From positions 1 to 64,000 of the forward strand of contig JADZGD010000120.1 of assembly GCA_020854055.1 (NCBI GenBank): a DNA stretch of 64,000 bases. Reading direction: 5' to 3'. The notes below the pieces were generated by a model that saw nothing but the letters and a program-made list of their open reading frames with translations, was not told where the DNA came from and searched no databases. Made by a program: the position numbers and the translations under genes. This stretch comes from Bryobacterales bacterium. GTDB taxonomy: Bacteria; Acidobacteriota; Terriglobia; Bryobacterales; Bryobacteraceae. Numbering within the stretch: position 1 is the stretch's first letter; each line of letters starts with the position of its first letter. This document shows, piece by piece, positions 46,080-53,901 of this stretch.

Positions 46080-46928
46080 CTATCCTTCCGGCTCGCGAGC
46101 CGGCATGTGCAGCAGGGCGCGCAGACGATCGCGCAGCAGGATGGTCTCCGATAGGTTGTCCACCTGGTTGCAGCCCATCCACTCGGTCCAAACGTATTCG
46201 AGACACAGGAAGCCCTGGAACTGCTGTTCCCGAAGCAGAGTCGTGATCGCGTCGAAATCCACACGGTTTGCGTCTGCCGCGCACTGGAGCAGCCCGGGAG
46301 CCGCGCAGCGCATGTGCATGTGTGAGGCGTGGCGCAGCAGCGGGTGGACCTGCTCGTTCGAGGAGCCCACGCAAAGGAAATGGCCGTAGTCGAGTGTGAG
46401 CGTGAGGCCGGGCACCTGGCGCAGGAAGGCATCTGCGGAGCCGGTGCTCGGACAGATGGAGCCGTGGTGGGCTTCCACCGCGTACCGGACGCCGGCCCTG
46501 GCGGCCTTCTCCAACCGCCAGGCCGCTGCTTCGGCCGCCAGGCCGAGTGCCGATTCAGCGGACAGAGCGGGATGATTGACACCCGGCAAGCCCGTCATGT
46601 GGCGGCATCCGAGCGCCGTCGTGAAGTCGAGAGCTCGCAGGAAGGTCTCACGGCCGGCTTCGCGCGTAGCGGGGTCGGGATCGTTGACGGAGCACTCCGC
46701 GGGATGGATTCCGATCTGCAAAAATACGTCGGATGCTATGAGGCCGCGACCGTCGAGCTCCTGACGGATCTCGCGTCCGGCCGTCACATCGCGGATGGGA
46801 TAGTGGGTGCTGCGCCCGAATAGTCCGATGTCGATGGCATCCAACTGCAGCATGCGAATCAGGTCCAGCGCTTGGGCGCGGTCCAGCAGAGGGAATGCGT
46901 AGTCAGCGCAGGAGAGGTTTATCGGCAT
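46080..46928 (-). CDS. Sugar phosphate isomerase/epimerase-like TIM barrel protein
   Basis: This protein of 282 residues starts at ATG 46928 (MPINLSCADYAFP), whose first bases overlap the stop of the solute-binding gene. It belongs to the xylose-isomerase-like AP endonuclease-2 superfamily. Likely metal ligands are Glu in YAVEAHHGS, Asp in LTLDYGHF, the HMHMR histidines and Glu in LCLEYVW. It would isomerise or epimerise a sugar or cyclitol derivative. It is the last gene of a minus-strand operon with a dehydratase, a Gfo/Idh dehydrogenase and a binding protein, all overlapping or nearly so. Confidence 0.85.
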   Translation of the reverse strand: MPINLSCADYAFPLLDRAQALDLIRMLQLDAIDIGLFGRSTHYPIRDVTAGREIRQELDGRGLIASDVFLQIGIHPAECSVNDPDPATREAGRETFLRALDFTTALGCRHMTGLPGVNHPALSAESALGLAAEAAAWRLEKAARAGVRYAVEAHHGSICPSTGSADAFLRQVPGLTLTLDYGHFLCVGSSNEQVHPLLRHASHMHMRCAAPGLLQCAADANRVDFDAITTLLREQQFQGFLCLEYVWTEWMGCNQVDNLSETILLRDRLRALLHMPAREPEG

Positions 46929-48085
46929 GCCGCGGTGCTCCGGCCGCAATCGAGATAGAGGCGGTTGATCTCATCGACAGCCGCCTCGGGGTTGCCGCCG
47001 GCGCGCAGGAACTCCACAATGGGATGGCCGGCGCGCTGCTGGAAGGCGACGTAGCCGGGATGCCGCGGCCGAACGAACGAGCGCTGCATGGCGGCGAGCG
47101 TCTGTGAGAAGAAGTCGTGTGTCAAGGCGTTGGCGGCGCCATCCAGCCAGGCTTGCCGGTGGGCCGGCTGGCCGCCCGCCTGGACATAGAGCGTACGTTG
47201 GCACGTTTCGCCGGTGACGTACGTGGCGAAACGCAGCGCCACTTCCCGTTGGCGGCATTGCGCGGACAGGGCCAGGCCGGTGCCGCCGATGACGCTGCAC
47301 ATGCGGGTCCCGGACCGGATGCCGGCGAGATCCGCGAAATGAACCGGATGAGCGGCAAATCCGGAGCGCGCGTAGTTGCTGTAGGAAAAGGCGAAAGGGC
47401 AGTAGGCGAACTCGTCGTTCCGGGCCAGCATTTCATAGATGCAGATCGGGTTCAGCGCGTAGATTCGGCCGGGCATGAGCGCGGCCAGCGCGCGCAGGCG
47501 CAGCAGAGACTCGGTACCGGCCGCGCGGTCGAGAGTCGTGTCGGGCCCGGTCTGCGGCATCCCGCCCAGAGAGTGATAGAGGCCGAGGAAGTTGAGGTAG
47601 AGGTCCGCCGGAAAGGCGGGCATCACGGCCAACCCTTCGCGCGCCAGGTTGAGGACCTCTTCCCAATTCCGCGGTACCGGGAGGCCGGCGCGATCGAGCA
47701 GGTCCGGGCGGTAGCTCGCCACCGGCGCCGCGGCGTCCAGCGGCAGGGCCCAGAGCCGTCCTTCATAGCGGTAGCTACCGAACGACGGGCCGACCGAGTT
47801 CGTCTCCAGGCCGGTCAGCAGTGGCTGCGGTAAAAGGTCATCTAACGGCAGCAGGATGCCTTGCCCGAAGGCGTCGCCCAACATCGGGTGATCGATCACC
47901 AGCAAGTCATAGGCGCGAGCCAAGGGGGCCAGCGGCGCGTGGCCGAAGTCGTCGAGGCTCCGCCGTTCCCAATGGATGGTGACACCGGGGTTCTCCTCCT
48001 CGAAACGCTGTGCAGCCGCGACCAATGGCGGGTACGCACGGCTGTGATTCCACGTCATCCCGGTGAGGCGGAGTGGCTCAGACAT
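46919..48085 (-). CDS. Extracellular solute-binding protein family 1 homologue without signal peptide
   Basis: This 388-residue protein has the sugar-binding SBP family 1 pattern: ERFEEENPGV-like VAAAQRFEEENPGVTIHW, YDLLVIDHPMLGDAF, YEGRLWALPLDAAAPVASYRPDLLDRAGLPVPRNWEE, given here in pieces. It begins directly with the first strand (MSEPLRLTGMTWNHS). No signal peptide or lipobox is present, and the ATG overlaps the upstream gene by 8 bases, so no hidden leader is likely. No permease or ATPase gene is nearby. It may be a cytoplasmic sensor or scavenger rather than a transport component. Confidence 0.82.
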   Translation of the reverse strand: MSEPLRLTGMTWNHSRAYPPLVAAAQRFEEENPGVTIHWERRSLDDFGHAPLAPLARAYDLLVIDHPMLGDAFGQGILLPLDDLLPQPLLTGLETNSVGPSFGSYRYEGRLWALPLDAAAPVASYRPDLLDRAGLPVPRNWEEVLNLAREGLAVMPAFPADLYLNFLGLYHSLGGMPQTGPDTTLDRAAGTESLLRLRALAALMPGRIYALNPICIYEMLARNDEFAYCPFAFSYSNYARSGFAAHPVHFADLAGIRSGTRMCSVIGGTGLALSAQCRQREVALRFATYVTGETCQRTLYVQAGGQPAHRQAWLDGAANALTHDFFSQTLAAMQRSFVRPRHPGYVAFQQRAGHPIVEFLRAGGNPEAAVDEINRLYLDCGRSTAACR

Positions 48086-49163
48086 CGACGGCCTCCGTCA
48101 GCTCCCGGACGGCGACGTTGCGGCCTGCGCGTGCGGAGATACACGCCGCCTCGACGATCTGCATACTGGCCAGGCCAAGCGTGCCGGGTGATTCGTTACT
48201 GGCGCGACCAGCGGCGCAGTCCACCAGGTTCCATGCGGGCGCCTGTTCCGGATAGATCGCTTCCGCCGGCAAATCCGGAACGGTCAAGGGTTCGCCGCCG
48301 GCCATCGGCCAGTAGCTCATGCGGCCGTTCCACAGATCGAGGAACAGCAACCCGCCGGTACCGAAGACGCGGACTTCATAGTCGCGGCGGGCCAACGGAG
48401 TCTCTCCGGTGCTGGCGATGGCAGCGATGCAATCGTTCGCCAGCCGGACGTTCAGCGTATCGTAGAGATCCAGCGGGCTGCCGCCGCAATGAAATCGAGC
48501 GAAGACGTCGGTGGGCGCGGATCCGGTGAGATAGGCGAGGTATGCGGCGGCGTGGGAGACCTGCGTATAGATCTGTCCGCCACCCGCGACGGCGGCATCG
48601 CTGTAAGTGGACGCGTGCGGGTGCAGGTAGGGCTGACCGTGGGTGGGGATGGTGCTGGTGCCGCGGATGAGGTGCGCGACGGGGTTGGTCATGATGACGC
48701 TGATCATCCCCAGGGCGCCAAGCGCGCCGTCGCGAATCAGCCGGCGGGCTACACGGGCATGCTCGGTGTAGTGCCATGGGCAACTGATGAGCAGATGGCA
48801 CTCCTTGCGGGCGGCGAGGCTGACGAGGTCTCCGGCCTGGGCTGCCGTGATGGTCATGGGCTTCTCGACCAGCACATGGAGGCCGTGTTCCAGGGCGGCT
48901 CGCGTGGAGTGGTAGTGCTGGTCCGCGCTGCTACTCACGACGACCGCGTCCAGCTCGAGCGCCAGTACCTCTTCGATGGACGTGCAGGCGTGGGGAACGC
49001 CGAAGTCCTGTGCGACCTTTTGGGCTGCCGCGCGGTCGCGCTTCTGCAGTGCCACCAGGTCGGCGGCGGGGTGCGCCAGGAGCGCGGGGATGTGGGCGTA
49101 GGTCGCCCACCAGCCGGCGCCGAGGACGGCGCATCTCACGTTCCGGCCTTCCACGCGGCGCAT
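48078..49163 (-). CDS. Gfo/Idh/MocA family oxidoreductase (cytoplasmic)
   Basis: This 361-residue NAD(P)-dependent dehydrogenase has the Rossmann motif CAVLGAGWWATYAHIP near residue 11, the family motif VLVEKPMTIT near 98, and the conserved His region GGGQIYTQVSHAAAYLAYL. It would oxidise a sugar, sugar acid or cyclitol. It lies 4 bases after the enolase-superfamily gene and overlaps the solute-binding gene by 8 bases, so it is part of one catabolic operon. It has no export signal, unlike its relative at 60886. Confidence 0.9.
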   Translation of the reverse strand: MRRVEGRNVRCAVLGAGWWATYAHIPALLAHPAADLVALQKRDRAAAQKVAQDFGVPHACTSIEEVLALELDAVVVSSSADQHYHSTRAALEHGLHVLVEKPMTITAAQAGDLVSLAARKECHLLISCPWHYTEHARVARRLIRDGALGALGMISVIMTNPVAHLIRGTSTIPTHGQPYLHPHASTYSDAAVAGGGQIYTQVSHAAAYLAYLTGSAPTDVFARFHCGGSPLDLYDTLNVRLANDCIAAIASTGETPLARRDYEVRVFGTGGLLFLDLWNGRMSYWPMAGGEPLTVPDLPAEAIYPEQAPAWNLVDCAAGRASNESPGTLGLASMQIVEAACISARAGRNVAVRELTEAVDV

Positions 49164-49167
49164 ATCG

Positions 49168-50364
49168 TCAGTCTAATCCCGAGACCGGCTCCAGGTAATC
49201 GCGGTTGAGTTCGACCCCGAAGCCGGGCTTGTCGCCGAGATCGATCATGCCGTCTACCGGAAGGGGCTCGCCCACGATCGTGTCGAAGGTAGAGCGCACC
49301 TCTGTGCCGTCGCCCACCGCCAGGTACTCGGCGTAGGGCGAGTTCAGGTTGGAGATGACGAAGTGGTAGGTGTATGCGCCGGCGCCGTGCGGAATGACCG
49401 GGATATCGTAGGCCTTGGCCATTGCGGCGATCCGCCGCACCGCGGTGAGGCCGCCGCACCACTGGAGCTCCGGCTGGATGATGTCGCAGGCGCGGTTGAC
49501 GAGGATGGAATGGAACGCCTTGTAGTCGAACTCCAGGTTGCCGATGGCGACCAGAACCGGGTTCACGCGCGATCGCAATTCGCGGTTGAGCGGCTCCGCC
49601 CAGCCGTTCTGCAGCGGGTCCTCAAACCACATGACGTCATAGTCGCGCACGCGGGCCGCCAGCCGGGAGGCGAATTCGAGGTCCCAGGACATGTAGCAGT
49701 CAATCATCAACTCCATCTCGTCGCCGATGGCTCTTCTGGTTTCGCGGATGCAGGATTCCATGCGGCGCAGACCGTCGCGGCCGGACGAGACGCCCCACGG
49801 AGCGGCAATCTTCACGCCGAGGAAGCCTCGGTCCTTCCAGCTTGACGCGGTGTCGGGGTGGGTGGTGACGTAGCAGGGAATGCGGTCTTTGGTCTTGCCG
49901 CCGCAGAGCCGGTAGACGGGCTGTCCCAGCGCACGGCCCACGAGGTCCCATAGCGCGAGGTCGACTCCGCTGATGGCCATCGAAGTGACGCCGCCCAGTC
50001 CGTAGGGCATGACGGAGCGGTACATCTGATCCCACAGGCGCTCGATGTCGAAGGGGTCCTGTCCGATGAGGAAGCGGCGGAAGTGCTGCTGGATGACGGC
50101 GCAGGCGAAGGGCCCACCGCCATAGTTGACGGCCGCGCCGACGACGCCGTCGTCGGTGAAGATCTCGATCGCGTACGGATCCTGGCCCGGCCCCATCCAG
50201 CGCGTACGCACGGACGCATAGTCCGGATAGACGGACATCGGATTGGCGATCAGCGCGTGGGTCTGCCACCCGCCACCCCAATACTGCGACTCGCCGAAGC
50301 GCGCGCCTTTCTCTCCGGTATTTCCGGAACGGATCCGGTAGACTTTCACGTCGGTGATCTTCAT
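49168..50364 (-). CDS. Enolase-superfamily sugar-acid dehydratase (L-rhamnonate dehydratase-like)
   Basis: This 398-residue mandelate racemase/muconate lactonizing enzyme family member resembles rhamnonate-type dehydratases. The capping domain comes first. The barrel then has GVKIAAPWG, metal ligands Asp in LMIDCYMSW and Glu in MWFEDPL, NLE near AIGNLEF, and the His in VIPHGAGAYTYH. It ends GFGVELNRDYLEP, typical of the dehydratases. It would remove water from an aldonate to give a 2-keto-3-deoxy acid. It is first in a four-gene operon, divergent from the IclR-type regulator. Confidence 0.85.
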   Translation of the reverse strand: MKITDVKVYRIRSGNTGEKGARFGESQYWGGGWQTHALIANPMSVYPDYASVRTRWMGPGQDPYAIEIFTDDGVVGAAVNYGGGPFACAVIQQHFRRFLIGQDPFDIERLWDQMYRSVMPYGLGGVTSMAISGVDLALWDLVGRALGQPVYRLCGGKTKDRIPCYVTTHPDTASSWKDRGFLGVKIAAPWGVSSGRDGLRRMESCIRETRRAIGDEMELMIDCYMSWDLEFASRLAARVRDYDVMWFEDPLQNGWAEPLNRELRSRVNPVLVAIGNLEFDYKAFHSILVNRACDIIQPELQWCGGLTAVRRIAAMAKAYDIPVIPHGAGAYTYHFVISNLNSPYAEYLAVGDGTEVRSTFDTIVGEPLPVDGMIDLGDKPGFGVELNRDYLEPVSGLD

Positions 50365-50484
50365 CGGCTTACCCCACGCGCCGGCAGGCGGCGTCTCCCT
50401 AGCAAACCCCGAAAGCGAGCCTCGCTCAATAGAAACGTCAGAGTCATCTTCGATTGCGGAAAACGCACTTCCCGGCAGTGAGCT

Positions 50485-50515
50485 GATTCGTCACAATTCA
50501 CTGAAAAGACGAATC
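50485..50515. promoter_or_regulatory. Inverted repeat in the divergent control region
   Basis: GATTCGTC at 50485-50492 and GACGAATC at 50508-50515 form a perfect 8-base inverted repeat with a 15-base spacer. It lies between the regulator gene and the dehydratase operon. It shares GACGAA with the palindrome over the regulator promoter and may be a second site for the same protein. Confidence 0.4.
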
Positions 50516-50557
50516 GGCGGCACCTCCGCCGGGAGTGGTCTCCAAAGTGCAACTCGA

Positions 50558-50587
50558 TTGACGAAATTGCGATTTCAGCAATACAAT
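50558..50587 (+). promoter_or_regulatory. Promoter of the IclR-PBP regulator with overlapping palindromic operator
   Basis: A strong promoter is visible: -35 TTGACG at 50558-50563, an 18-base spacer and -10 TACAAT at 50582-50587, about 20 bases before the ATG at 50606. The same DNA is a palindrome. TTGACGAAAT (50558-50567) and ATTTCAGCAA (50572-50581) match in 8 of 10 positions around TGCG. The GAAAT-N4-ATTTC core resembles IclR-family operators, so autoregulation is likely. Confidence 0.6.
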
Positions 50588-50605
50588 GAGACCGGAATCG
50601 CTGTG

Positions 50606-51733
50606 ATGCAGACGCCAGGCCATTACCGACTGGAGACCGTGAGCCGGGCGTGCGCAGTGCTGAAGGCGTTTTGCAGCGAGGACGAGCCGTTGACGCTCTC
50701 CGAGTTGATCGCGCGGACGGGGCTGGAGAAGACGATCGTCTTCCGGTTGGTTCACACGCTGGCCGAGGAGGGACTACTGCGGCGGACCGGCGGCCGGCGT
50801 TATGTGCCGGGTTACCGTCTGTTGGACCGGACCAGGTTTCGCATCGGTTTTGCCGCGCAAACGGGGGCGTCGCCATTCTCTTCCGCCGTCACCGACAGTA
50901 TCCGCTGGGCGGCGGAAAAGAACGCAGTCGATCTGGTGGTGCTGGACAACCGGTACAGCGAGAAGGCGGCGCTGCGGAACGCGCGCGCTCTGATCGCGGC
51001 GAGGGTGGACCTTGCCATCGAGTTCCAGACCTATGAAAAGGCCGCACCGATGGTATCGTCGCTATTCGGTGCGGAGGGAATTCCCCTGATCGCCGTCGAG
51101 ATTCCGCATCCCGGCGCGACATACTTTGGCGTCGACAACTACCGGGCGGGCATGCTCGCCGGATCGACGCTCGCCAGGTGGTGCAAGCAGCGCTGGAATG
51201 GCGATGTGGACGAGGTACTTCTGCTGGAACTCGGCATCGCGGGGACGTTGCCCCACCTGCGGCTGTCCGGTGCGGAAGCGGTGCTGCGGGCGTCGCTCGT
51301 CCCGGGTGGCCGGTTCCGCTATATCGAGACGCGCGGCGAGTTTGGAAAGGCGCAGGAGGCGGTTCGGAAGCATCTCAGGGACAACAAACGGCACCGGACA
51401 CTCATCGTGGGAGTCAACGACCCGGCGGTGCTGGGCGCGTTGCGAGCGTTTGAGGAAGCCGGGCGAGCGGAATGGTGCGCGGCGGTCGGCATGGGCGCCA
51501 TTCCGGATGCGTGCGACGAACTGCGGCGGCCGGCTACGCGGCTGGTCGGGTCCGTCGCGTTCTTCCCGGAGCGCTACGGCGAGGACCTGATCCGTCTGGC
51601 CATCGATATCCTGCAAGGCAAACCCGCGCCGCCGGCTGTCTACGCGCAGCACCGCCTGGTCACGGCACAGAACGTGGAGCAGTACTATCCGGCAGCGATT
51701 GCGCGGTCCGGGCAGAGCGGAGAGAATTCATGA
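50606..51733 (+). CDS. Chimeric regulator: IclR-type winged HTH fused to a periplasmic-binding-like sensor domain
   Basis: This protein of 375 residues starts at ATG 50606, just after a good promoter; the frame is open upstream to 50354 but that part precedes the promoter. Residues 5-75 are an IclR-type winged helix (ETVSRACAVLKAF, LTLSELIARTGLEKTIVFRLVHTL). Instead of the IclR effector domain, the rest (about 85-360) is a type 1 periplasmic-binding/LacI-like sugar-binding domain (GVDNYRAGMLAGSTLARW, IVGVNDPAVLGALRAFEEAG). This pairing is unusual. Position divergent from the sugar-acid operon makes it the probable regulator of that operon. Confidence 0.85.
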   Translation: MQTPGHYRLETVSRACAVLKAFCSEDEPLTLSELIARTGLEKTIVFRLVHTLAEEGLLRRTGGRRYVPGYRLLDRTRFRIGFAAQTGASPFSSAVTDSIRWAAEKNAVDLVVLDNRYSEKAALRNARALIAARVDLAIEFQTYEKAAPMVSSLFGAEGIPLIAVEIPHPGATYFGVDNYRAGMLAGSTLARWCKQRWNGDVDEVLLLELGIAGTLPHLRLSGAEAVLRASLVPGGRFRYIETRGEFGKAQEAVRKHLRDNKRHRTLIVGVNDPAVLGALRAFEEAGRAEWCAAVGMGAIPDACDELRRPATRLVGSVAFFPERYGEDLIRLAIDILQGKPAPPAVYAQHRLVTAQNVEQYYPAAIARSGQSGENS

Positions 51734-51940
51734 CCGTTCGACAGGTCTTAGCCCTTCCTCTTCCATGATCGCATTGAACAGTTCGCGGTGAGCTTTCGGA
51801 AAGACCAGGACGGCCGGCTGCAGGGGCGTGTTCCGTTCGGTCAAGCGCTCGAATGGGCGCACGGCTGCGCTGGTCCTCTTGCAATAACCGGCGCCGCGCT
51901 TACCGCGAACCTCGATCCCAAGAATGGTTTCCCTGGTCAT
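51728..51940 (-). other. Doubtful small open frame downstream of the histidine kinase
   Basis: The 313-base stretch 51734-52046 between the regulator and the kinase has no clear gene. On the minus strand a frame ends at 51728 and could start at ATG 51940, giving 70 residues (MTRETILGIEVRGKRG at the start, KAHRELFNAIMEEEG near the end). It lacks a ribosome binding site. The longer version starting at 52141 overlaps the kinase 3' end. It resembles no family I know and may be chance. Confidence 0.2.
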
Positions 51941-52046
51941 GAACAGCGCGTGGCCGTGGAGCTGCTCGGACTCCCATTTGAGACGATTTGTCTTGAGGTT
52001 CTTCGCGCACTCGCGTGTTGCCGTGTAGAGATGCTGGTCGCCTTCT

Positions 52047-53270
52047 TCAGGCGCGGGGGAGCGTAAAGAAGAAACTCGCGCCCAGGCCGGGCTCCGATTC
52101 CACCCAAATCCGTCCGCCAAATTGTTCCACAACTCGCTCACAGATGGCTAGCCCCATTCCGGTTCCCGAATACTGACTTTGCGTGTGTAACCGGCGGAAC
52201 AGCCCGAAGATATAGCGGTGATACTGAGGGTCGATTCCAATGCCGCTGTCCCGCACGCAAAATGTCACTTCCGTGTCGCCGGCAGTGGCCGACACAAAGA
52301 TGCGCGGCGCCTCGCCGGCGGTCTGATACTTGAGGGCGTTAGCCAACAGGTTCTGAAAGACCTGACCGAGCGGTGCAGCCCGGGCGAGAACGTCGGGAAG
52401 TTCACCGACGTCGACGATCGCGTGGCATTCCCGAATCTGCGGTTCCAGATCCTGCAACACTGCTTGGAGCACGGTCTGAGGATGGATCGCTTGGAGCGGG
52501 CGTCCGCTTTCATGCCCGGCGCGGGTGTACTCGATCAGATCATGAAGCAGGTTCTGCATCCGATGCGACCCTTCGATGGCGTAACCTATGAATTCCCGCG
52601 CCGCCGGATCAAGATGCGGGCCGTAGCGGCTTTCGAGCAATTTCACATAGGAAGACACCATCCGCAGCGGCTCCCGCAAATCATGCGACGCGGAATAGGC
52701 AAACTGGTTCAGATTTTCATTTGCCCGGGTTAAGGCCTGGTTGGTCTCGCGCAGGGCGCGAACGGTATTCTCCAGTTCGCGCGTACGGTCGCGAACCCGC
52801 TGTTCCAGTTCCGCATTCAAAGCGCGAACCCGGTCTTCGGCGTCCTTGCGAACCAGAATCTCCTGGGCCAGTTTGCCGTTAGCTGTCTTCAGTTGGCTCG
52901 GGCTGGGTAGTTCGAGGACGCCCGGAATCTGGCGGTATAACAGGATCGCGGTAGGGAGTGAGGCGAGCGCCGTAAGCGCCTTGATCACGCCCTCCAGCCG
53001 GTAGGTGCCGTGCCACAGCGTCCAGATCGACATCAGGTGCGTCGTTCCGCAAGTCAGGATGAAAAGTCCAAACAACAGGAACATCCACTGGAATTCCAGG
53101 TCTTTGCGCTTCTTCACCAGGTAGACCAGTCCGAAGGGAATCAGGTAGTAGGAGAATGCCGTAACGGCGTCCGAAGAAACGTGTAGCCAGACGATCTCAG
53201 GCCGCCAGAAATAGCAGTGCCCATGGGGCATAAAATCGGATTGAAACAAGCGCCGGAAAAACTCAACCAT
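52047..53270 (-). CDS. Sensor histidine kinase with ethylene-receptor-like transmembrane domain
   Basis: This protein of 407 residues starts at ATG 53270 with GGAGGGG just upstream. The N terminus has three membrane helices matching the plant ETR1 sensor: Asp34 and Tyr41 in the first, and FGLFILTCGTTH with Phe70, Ile71, Cys74 and His78 in the second. Spacing equals ETR1 D25, Y32, F61, I62, C65 and H69 with a constant offset of 9; C65 and H69 hold copper in ETR1. A coiled coil follows. Then come HisKA (SASHDLREP, His196) and HATPase_c (LLANALKYQ, DSGIGID, GTGMGLAI). No response regulator gene is adjacent. Confidence 0.92.
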   Translation of the reverse strand: MVEFFRRLFQSDFMPHGHCYFWRPEIVWLHVSSDAVTAFSYYLIPFGLVYLVKKRKDLEFQWMFLLFGLFILTCGTTHLMSIWTLWHGTYRLEGVIKALTALASLPTAILLYRQIPGVLELPSPSQLKTANGKLAQEILVRKDAEDRVRALNAELEQRVRDRTRELENTVRALRETNQALTRANENLNQFAYSASHDLREPLRMVSSYVKLLESRYGPHLDPAAREFIGYAIEGSHRMQNLLHDLIEYTRAGHESGRPLQAIHPQTVLQAVLQDLEPQIRECHAIVDVGELPDVLARAAPLGQVFQNLLANALKYQTAGEAPRIFVSATAGDTEVTFCVRDSGIGIDPQYHRYIFGLFRRLHTQSQYSGTGMGLAICERVVEQFGGRIWVESEPGLGASFFFTLPRA

Positions 53271-53622: not shown

Positions 53623-53901
53623 ATGGCAAACCATTTTTCTGCGCTGAAGCGGGTTCGGCAGACCGAGCGGCGCACCGTAGTAAATCGCGCCCGCCGATCT
53701 CGTCTGCGGCACCAGATTCGCGCAATGCGGCGCCTGCTCGACCAGAAGGATACGGCAGCGGCTCAGGCAGCGGTTCCGGCGACATTTTCGGTGGTGGATC
53801 GCGCGGCAAAGTGGGGCATTATCAAGCAGAATACGGCGGCTCGCTACAAGAGCCGGCTGGTGCTCCGGTTAAAGGGACTGACCGGGACAGCCGCCGCTTA
53901 A
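53623..53901 (+). CDS. rpsT: 30S ribosomal protein S20
   Basis: This 92-residue basic protein binds the 5' domain of 16S rRNA. It shows the S20 three-helix pattern: [21 protein letters not shown] at the start, here [19 protein letters not shown], and the ending [19 protein letters not shown]. It starts at an ATG preceded by GGAAAGAGAG. It converges on holA, which is its common neighbour in many genomes. Confidence 0.96.

Follow-up and report, generated by a model that had tools for sequence, protein, structure and literature searches.

An ethylene-receptor-type sensor histidine kinase predicted from the genome of a Bryobacterales bacterium

Described receptors and the kinase compared with them

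Ethylene is a plant hormone that is met by bacteria too. Putative ethylene receptors with diverse outputs have already been reported from several bacterial phyla, among which the literature found does not name Acidobacteriota (PMC11819568, PMC7700396). In AzoEtr1 of Azospirillum brasilense, residues 1-130, expressed in Pichia, bind ethylene saturably; disruption of the gene abolishes the ethylene binding of the cells, the protein mediates responses to ethylene, its D35A and C75A variants were intended not to bind, and an overlapping gene just downstream encodes a 135-aa response regulator (PMC11819568). SynEtr1 (slr1212) of Synechocystis also binds ethylene (PMC6682694) and is a dual receptor for ethylene and light (PMC11819568).

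The kinase analysed in the present work is encoded in a window of 64,000 nucleotides, this being the whole stretch of DNA that was analysed, from a Bryobacterales bacterium. Like AzoEtr1, it has an ETR1_N domain with the seven residues associated with binding, followed by HisKA and HATPase_c domains, and the key residues of the two proteins occupy near-identical positions (D35, C75, H79 and K98 in AzoEtr1; D34, C74, H78 and K97 in the window kinase). The A. brasilense protein used for the comparison has 525 aa, the same length and architecture as the published AzoEtr1, and its domain is about 52-55% identical to that of the window kinase. The two proteins differ in that the PAS domain of AzoEtr1 is replaced by a simple helix in the window kinase, and in that AzoEtr1 has an overlapping regulator gene whereas the window kinase has no adjacent regulator; of the two, ethylene binding is proven for AzoEtr1 only. 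The identity of the ETR1_N domain is 68% to the nearest relative, L032, 53% to a cyanobacterial copy from Kovacikia and about 33% to Arabidopsis ETR1, and by these alignments AzoEtr1 and other bacterial copies resemble it more closely than the plant receptor does.

Arabidopsis ETR1 shares with the window kinase the three-helix domain, the copper-site residues and the character of a kinase-type receptor. ETR1 carries GAF and receiver domains; it differs in having no PHGxC motif (in the sequence used here) and in being placed by the tree with cyanobacteria. SynEtr1 and the Geitlerinema proteins GeiEtr1/2 are, like the window kinase, bacterial proteins with an ethylene-binding domain, but SynEtr1, compared here by its description, senses light, and Pfam detects no photosensory domain in the window protein. 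The bacteriophytochrome-type kinases that work with Rcp1-type regulators have a kinase core like that of the window kinase (8f71), which is coupled in them to a phytochrome sensory domain and here to a membrane ETR1_N sensor instead.

Gene and domain architecture

The gene is a single open frame on the minus strand, running from 53270 to 52047, and the coordinates given by the initial annotation hold. Its start is likely the ATG at 53270, which is preceded by TCTGGGAGGGGTCTG with GGGAGGGG just upstream, rather than an in-frame TTG extension that reaches upstream to 53369. Because the GC content of the gene (58.4%) is just about 1.3 SD below that of stretches of the same size (61.6 +/- 2.5%), its composition gives no clear sign of recent import. 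Two open reading frames just downstream (51731-52051, minus; 51788-52063, plus) have no Pfam match and are probably spurious.

Table 1. Coordinates of the kinase gene, its domains and selected residues in the window
Feature	Position	Strand	Basis or remark
Ethylene-binding-domain sensor histidine kinase ORF	52047..53270	minus	407 aa + stop
PHGHCY motif, residues 15-20 (H16, C19)	53211..53228	minus	conserved in bacterial members
ETR1_N ethylene-binding domain, residues 26-121	52908..53195	minus	Pfam PF25487, 130.7 bits
HisKA dimerisation/phosphoacceptor domain, residues 187-253, H196	52512..52712	minus	Pfam, 44.3 bits
HATPase_c catalytic domain, residues 299-406	52053..52376	minus	Pfam, 99.4 bits
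Codon of D34 (ETR1 D25)	53169..53171	minus	alignment
Codon of Y41 (ETR1 Y32)	53148..53150	minus	alignment
Codon of C74 (ETR1 C65, Cu ligand)	53049..53051	minus	alignment
Codon of H78 (ETR1 H69, Cu ligand)	53037..53039	minus	alignment

The search against the ethylene-binding-domain family that the initial annotation had proposed puts the sensor inside that family: the Pfam match (E = 2.4e-38) covers model positions 2-97 of 97 at a score far above the curated cut-off of 27 bits, exceeding the score of Arabidopsis ETR1 and equalling that of AzoEtr1. A match of this strength lies far beyond chance, and membership of the family is solid by this measure. When the 4.96-Mb genome was searched with the ETR1_N profile, the window kinase was the sole match, at 134.5 bits. 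The kinase core had been described as intact, which the Pfam domains, the phosphoacceptor H196 and the boxes bear out (N311, DSGIGI at 341, GLFRRL at 356 and GTGMGL at 369, conforming to the N, G1, F and G2 boxes).

The AlphaFold2 model (mean pLDDT 88.6) contains three helices of transmembrane length, at residues 24-54, 61-87 and 90-119, which are also peaks of hydropathy, followed by a continuous helix (124-219) that runs into the HisKA hairpin and by a normal catalytic domain. The sequence KKRK after helix 1 suggests a topology in which three transmembrane helices precede a cytoplasmic kinase. The nearest PDB match to the kinase core is the kinase domain of RpBphP2 (8f71), together with other bacteriophytochromes; a sequence search for a solved structure of an ETR1_N domain found none.

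Binding residues, distribution and descent

The ETR1 sequence used for the alignment is supported by its own match to ETR1_N, at 115.7 bits (1.2e-33). In this alignment D34, Y41, I44, P45, F70, I71, C74 and H78 correspond to ETR1 D25, Y32, I35, P36, F61, I62, C65 and H69 at an offset of 9 throughout, while K97, the equivalent of K91, is offset by 6 because the loop between helices 2 and 3 differs in length. All seven residues required for binding in ETR1 are therefore kept (D34, Y41, I44, P45, I71, C74 and H78), together with the D25/K91 pair. The initial annotation had given a constant offset of 9 for D34, Y41, F70, I71, C74 and H78, which is exact as far as H78, and had correctly named five of the seven required residues in addition to F61; it omitted I35 and P36, which are present as well. 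Its description of the domain as a match to the plant ethylene receptor stands as regards family and residues but not as regards a special resemblance to plants, since most bacterial members share these residues: among 121 aligned ETR1_N domains the seven are complete in 92 and the copper pair is present in 114. Agreement with ETR1 at these positions is what a functional member of the family should show, and is not evidence of a special kinship with plants; judged from the alignment, it is a matter of family-wide conservation. Six acidobacterial loci (L011, L015, L016, L017, L027 and L028) have divergent ETR1_N-like domains without the C/H copper pair, which may sense another ligand or be in decay.

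The initial annotation had also proposed a tree with cyanobacterial and plant receptors. In a domain tree of 112 rows, the cyanobacterial domains and ETR1 form one group (97/92) and the window protein groups with the Bryobacterales protein L032 (94/81). Resolution is weak at many forks, to the extent that forcing the window domain into the cyanobacterial and ETR1 group is not rejected (p-AU 0.097), nor is forcing it together with ETR1 alone (0.198).

The ethylene-binding domain is common yet patchy across bacteria. It occurs in 14 of 297 acidobacterial genomes and in 49 of the 237 genomes of the family to which the window belongs, with one to four copies in each genome that has it. A scan of species genomes, for which a five-sequence alignment and the pattern HGHCY[FY]W were used, a 13-sequence alignment being too diverse, yielded 75 loci from Acidobacteriota, Bacteroidota, Myxococcota, Verrucomicrobiota, Pseudomonadota, Cyanobacteriota and others. 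The window kinase is thus a new copy of a known and bacterially widespread family, with members in plants, cyanobacteria and Azospirillum, and not a plant-like oddity. In this one acidobacterial family about every fifth genome encodes a canonical receptor-type kinase, which suggests that the ability to perceive ethylene reaches far outside the cyanobacteria and plant-associated proteobacteria studied to date. Searches of a largely open-access literature found no acidobacterial ethylene receptor; what gives the kinase its moderate interest is that the same literature yielded no test of whether Acidobacteriota sense ethylene.

In one acidobacterial genome (locus L013) the reading frame of the ethylene-binding domain breaks off after some 33 domain residues, likely through pseudogene formation or an assembly error. 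A search of viral contigs turned up no relative of the window domain. A hypothetical protein of Maribacter phage Molly_1 (MT732451.1, 36990-37859; L029:3932-4801; QQO97550.1) matches ETR1_N at 60.9 bits; it has no kinase, sits between tail and terminase genes, keeps the copper-ligand C and H but has D25 replaced by N and P36 by S, and was found only in the Molly/Colly phages.

Proposed function and response partner

Taking together the sequence, the structural model and the analogy with described receptors, we consider it likely that the window protein is a functional sensor histidine kinase of the ethylene-receptor type, for which we infer the copper, the ligand and the output. Ethylene would bind in the membrane to a Cu(I) ion coordinated by C74 and H78, binding would alter the packing of the helices, and the signal, passing down the helix 124-219, would change the autophosphorylation of H196. 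The phosphate would then pass to a response regulator of the CheY/Rcp1 type, which is placed elsewhere in the genome because none is adjacent. A first guess for the output, by analogy with SynEtr1 and AzoEtr1, would be a role in how cells behave on surfaces, for example in forming biofilms or attaching. The genome has three genes for Cu-type P1B ATPases above the curated cut-off, which makes a supply of copper to the envelope plausible. Two features count against this reading: the gene is an orphan whose neighbourhood is not conserved, and the family is patchily distributed. Since the protein is compact and has neither PAS nor GAF, it suits tests of how the membrane site drives the kinase.

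A Cu(I) site in the membrane could also respond to copper or to other small unsaturated ligands, and the kinase might accordingly be a sensor that depends on Cu(I) and is naturally triggered by copper itself or another small ligand, with ethylene binding incidental or absent in this lineage. A possible second metal site in the bacterial members speaks for such a role: an extra H-x2-C before helix 1 is found in 42 of 45 domains that have the copper pair and in none of 6 that lack it (Fisher p 5e-6, relatedness ignored), the counts being restricted to loci found without a motif-based search because the pattern used in the genome scan itself contains the motif. We regard this alternative as unlikely, given that the window kinase keeps the full set of seven ETR1 binding residues and that AzoEtr1, which shares them in a domain about 52-55% identical, binds ethylene and mediates responses to it. 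The motif is absent from ETR1 (in the sequence used here), and one may speculate, though we rate it as doubtful, that bacterial ethylene-binding domains possess a second conserved metal-capable site that could load copper or tune the choice of ligand, copper then being acquired differently from the way it is in plant receptors.

The orphan state of the gene raises the further question of whether an intact sensor is wired to a response at all. As the initial annotation had noted of the output partner, there is no receiver (REC) gene within 600 bp of the kinase, and none is fused to it; moreover, the lptE-holA-rpsT block is conserved in family members, where other genes occupy the place of the kinase. 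A recently acquired or decaying orphan could have both of these features, but the frame is open, the ribosome-binding site and all sensor and kinase motifs are intact, and the closest relative, L032, is likewise an intact orphan with neither an adjacent nor a fused receiver, so that this explanation appears very improbable. It is common for an orphan kinase to have its regulator encoded far away. Among the 71 relatives with enough flanking sequence, 36 have a same-strand receiver ORF within 600 bp (a few may be spurious, the ORFs having been called mechanically) and 10 have a fused receiver.

For a functional receptor, the partner could be sought among the 72 receiver-domain matches of the genome, which also has 35 HisKA matches. 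Orphan-looking Rcp1-type regulators are found on contigs C137 (22326-22700) and C10 (8654-9016), with a further orphan Rcp1-like regulator on C42 (41806-42168). The C137 protein shares 65% identity with the regulator adjacent to L065, an acidobacterial kinase with an ethylene-binding domain. Because other Rcp1-type regulators cross-match at 30-58%, the C137 regulator is a candidate partner only in the sense of a lead. Just past the window (L145:4488-7623; contig C120, about 64.5-67.6 kb), some 11-14 kb from the window kinase, lies a large sensor kinase whose core resembles that of bacteriophytochromes, with an Rcp1-type regulator directly behind it.

Of the immediate neighbours, rpsT (53623-53901, plus) diverges from the kinase gene, and a regulator gene of the IclR/periplasmic-binding-protein type (about 50585-51733, plus) converges on it. 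The latter is the divergent regulator of a group of four minus-strand genes (46080-51733 in all) that encode a xylose-isomerase-like TIM barrel, a solute-binding protein, a GFO/IDH/MocA oxidoreductase and an enzyme of the mandelate-racemase family. The group is probably a sugar-acid catabolic cluster, and its regulator combines an IclR-type HTH with a sugar-binding (periplasmic-binding-protein) domain, which is an unusual fusion.
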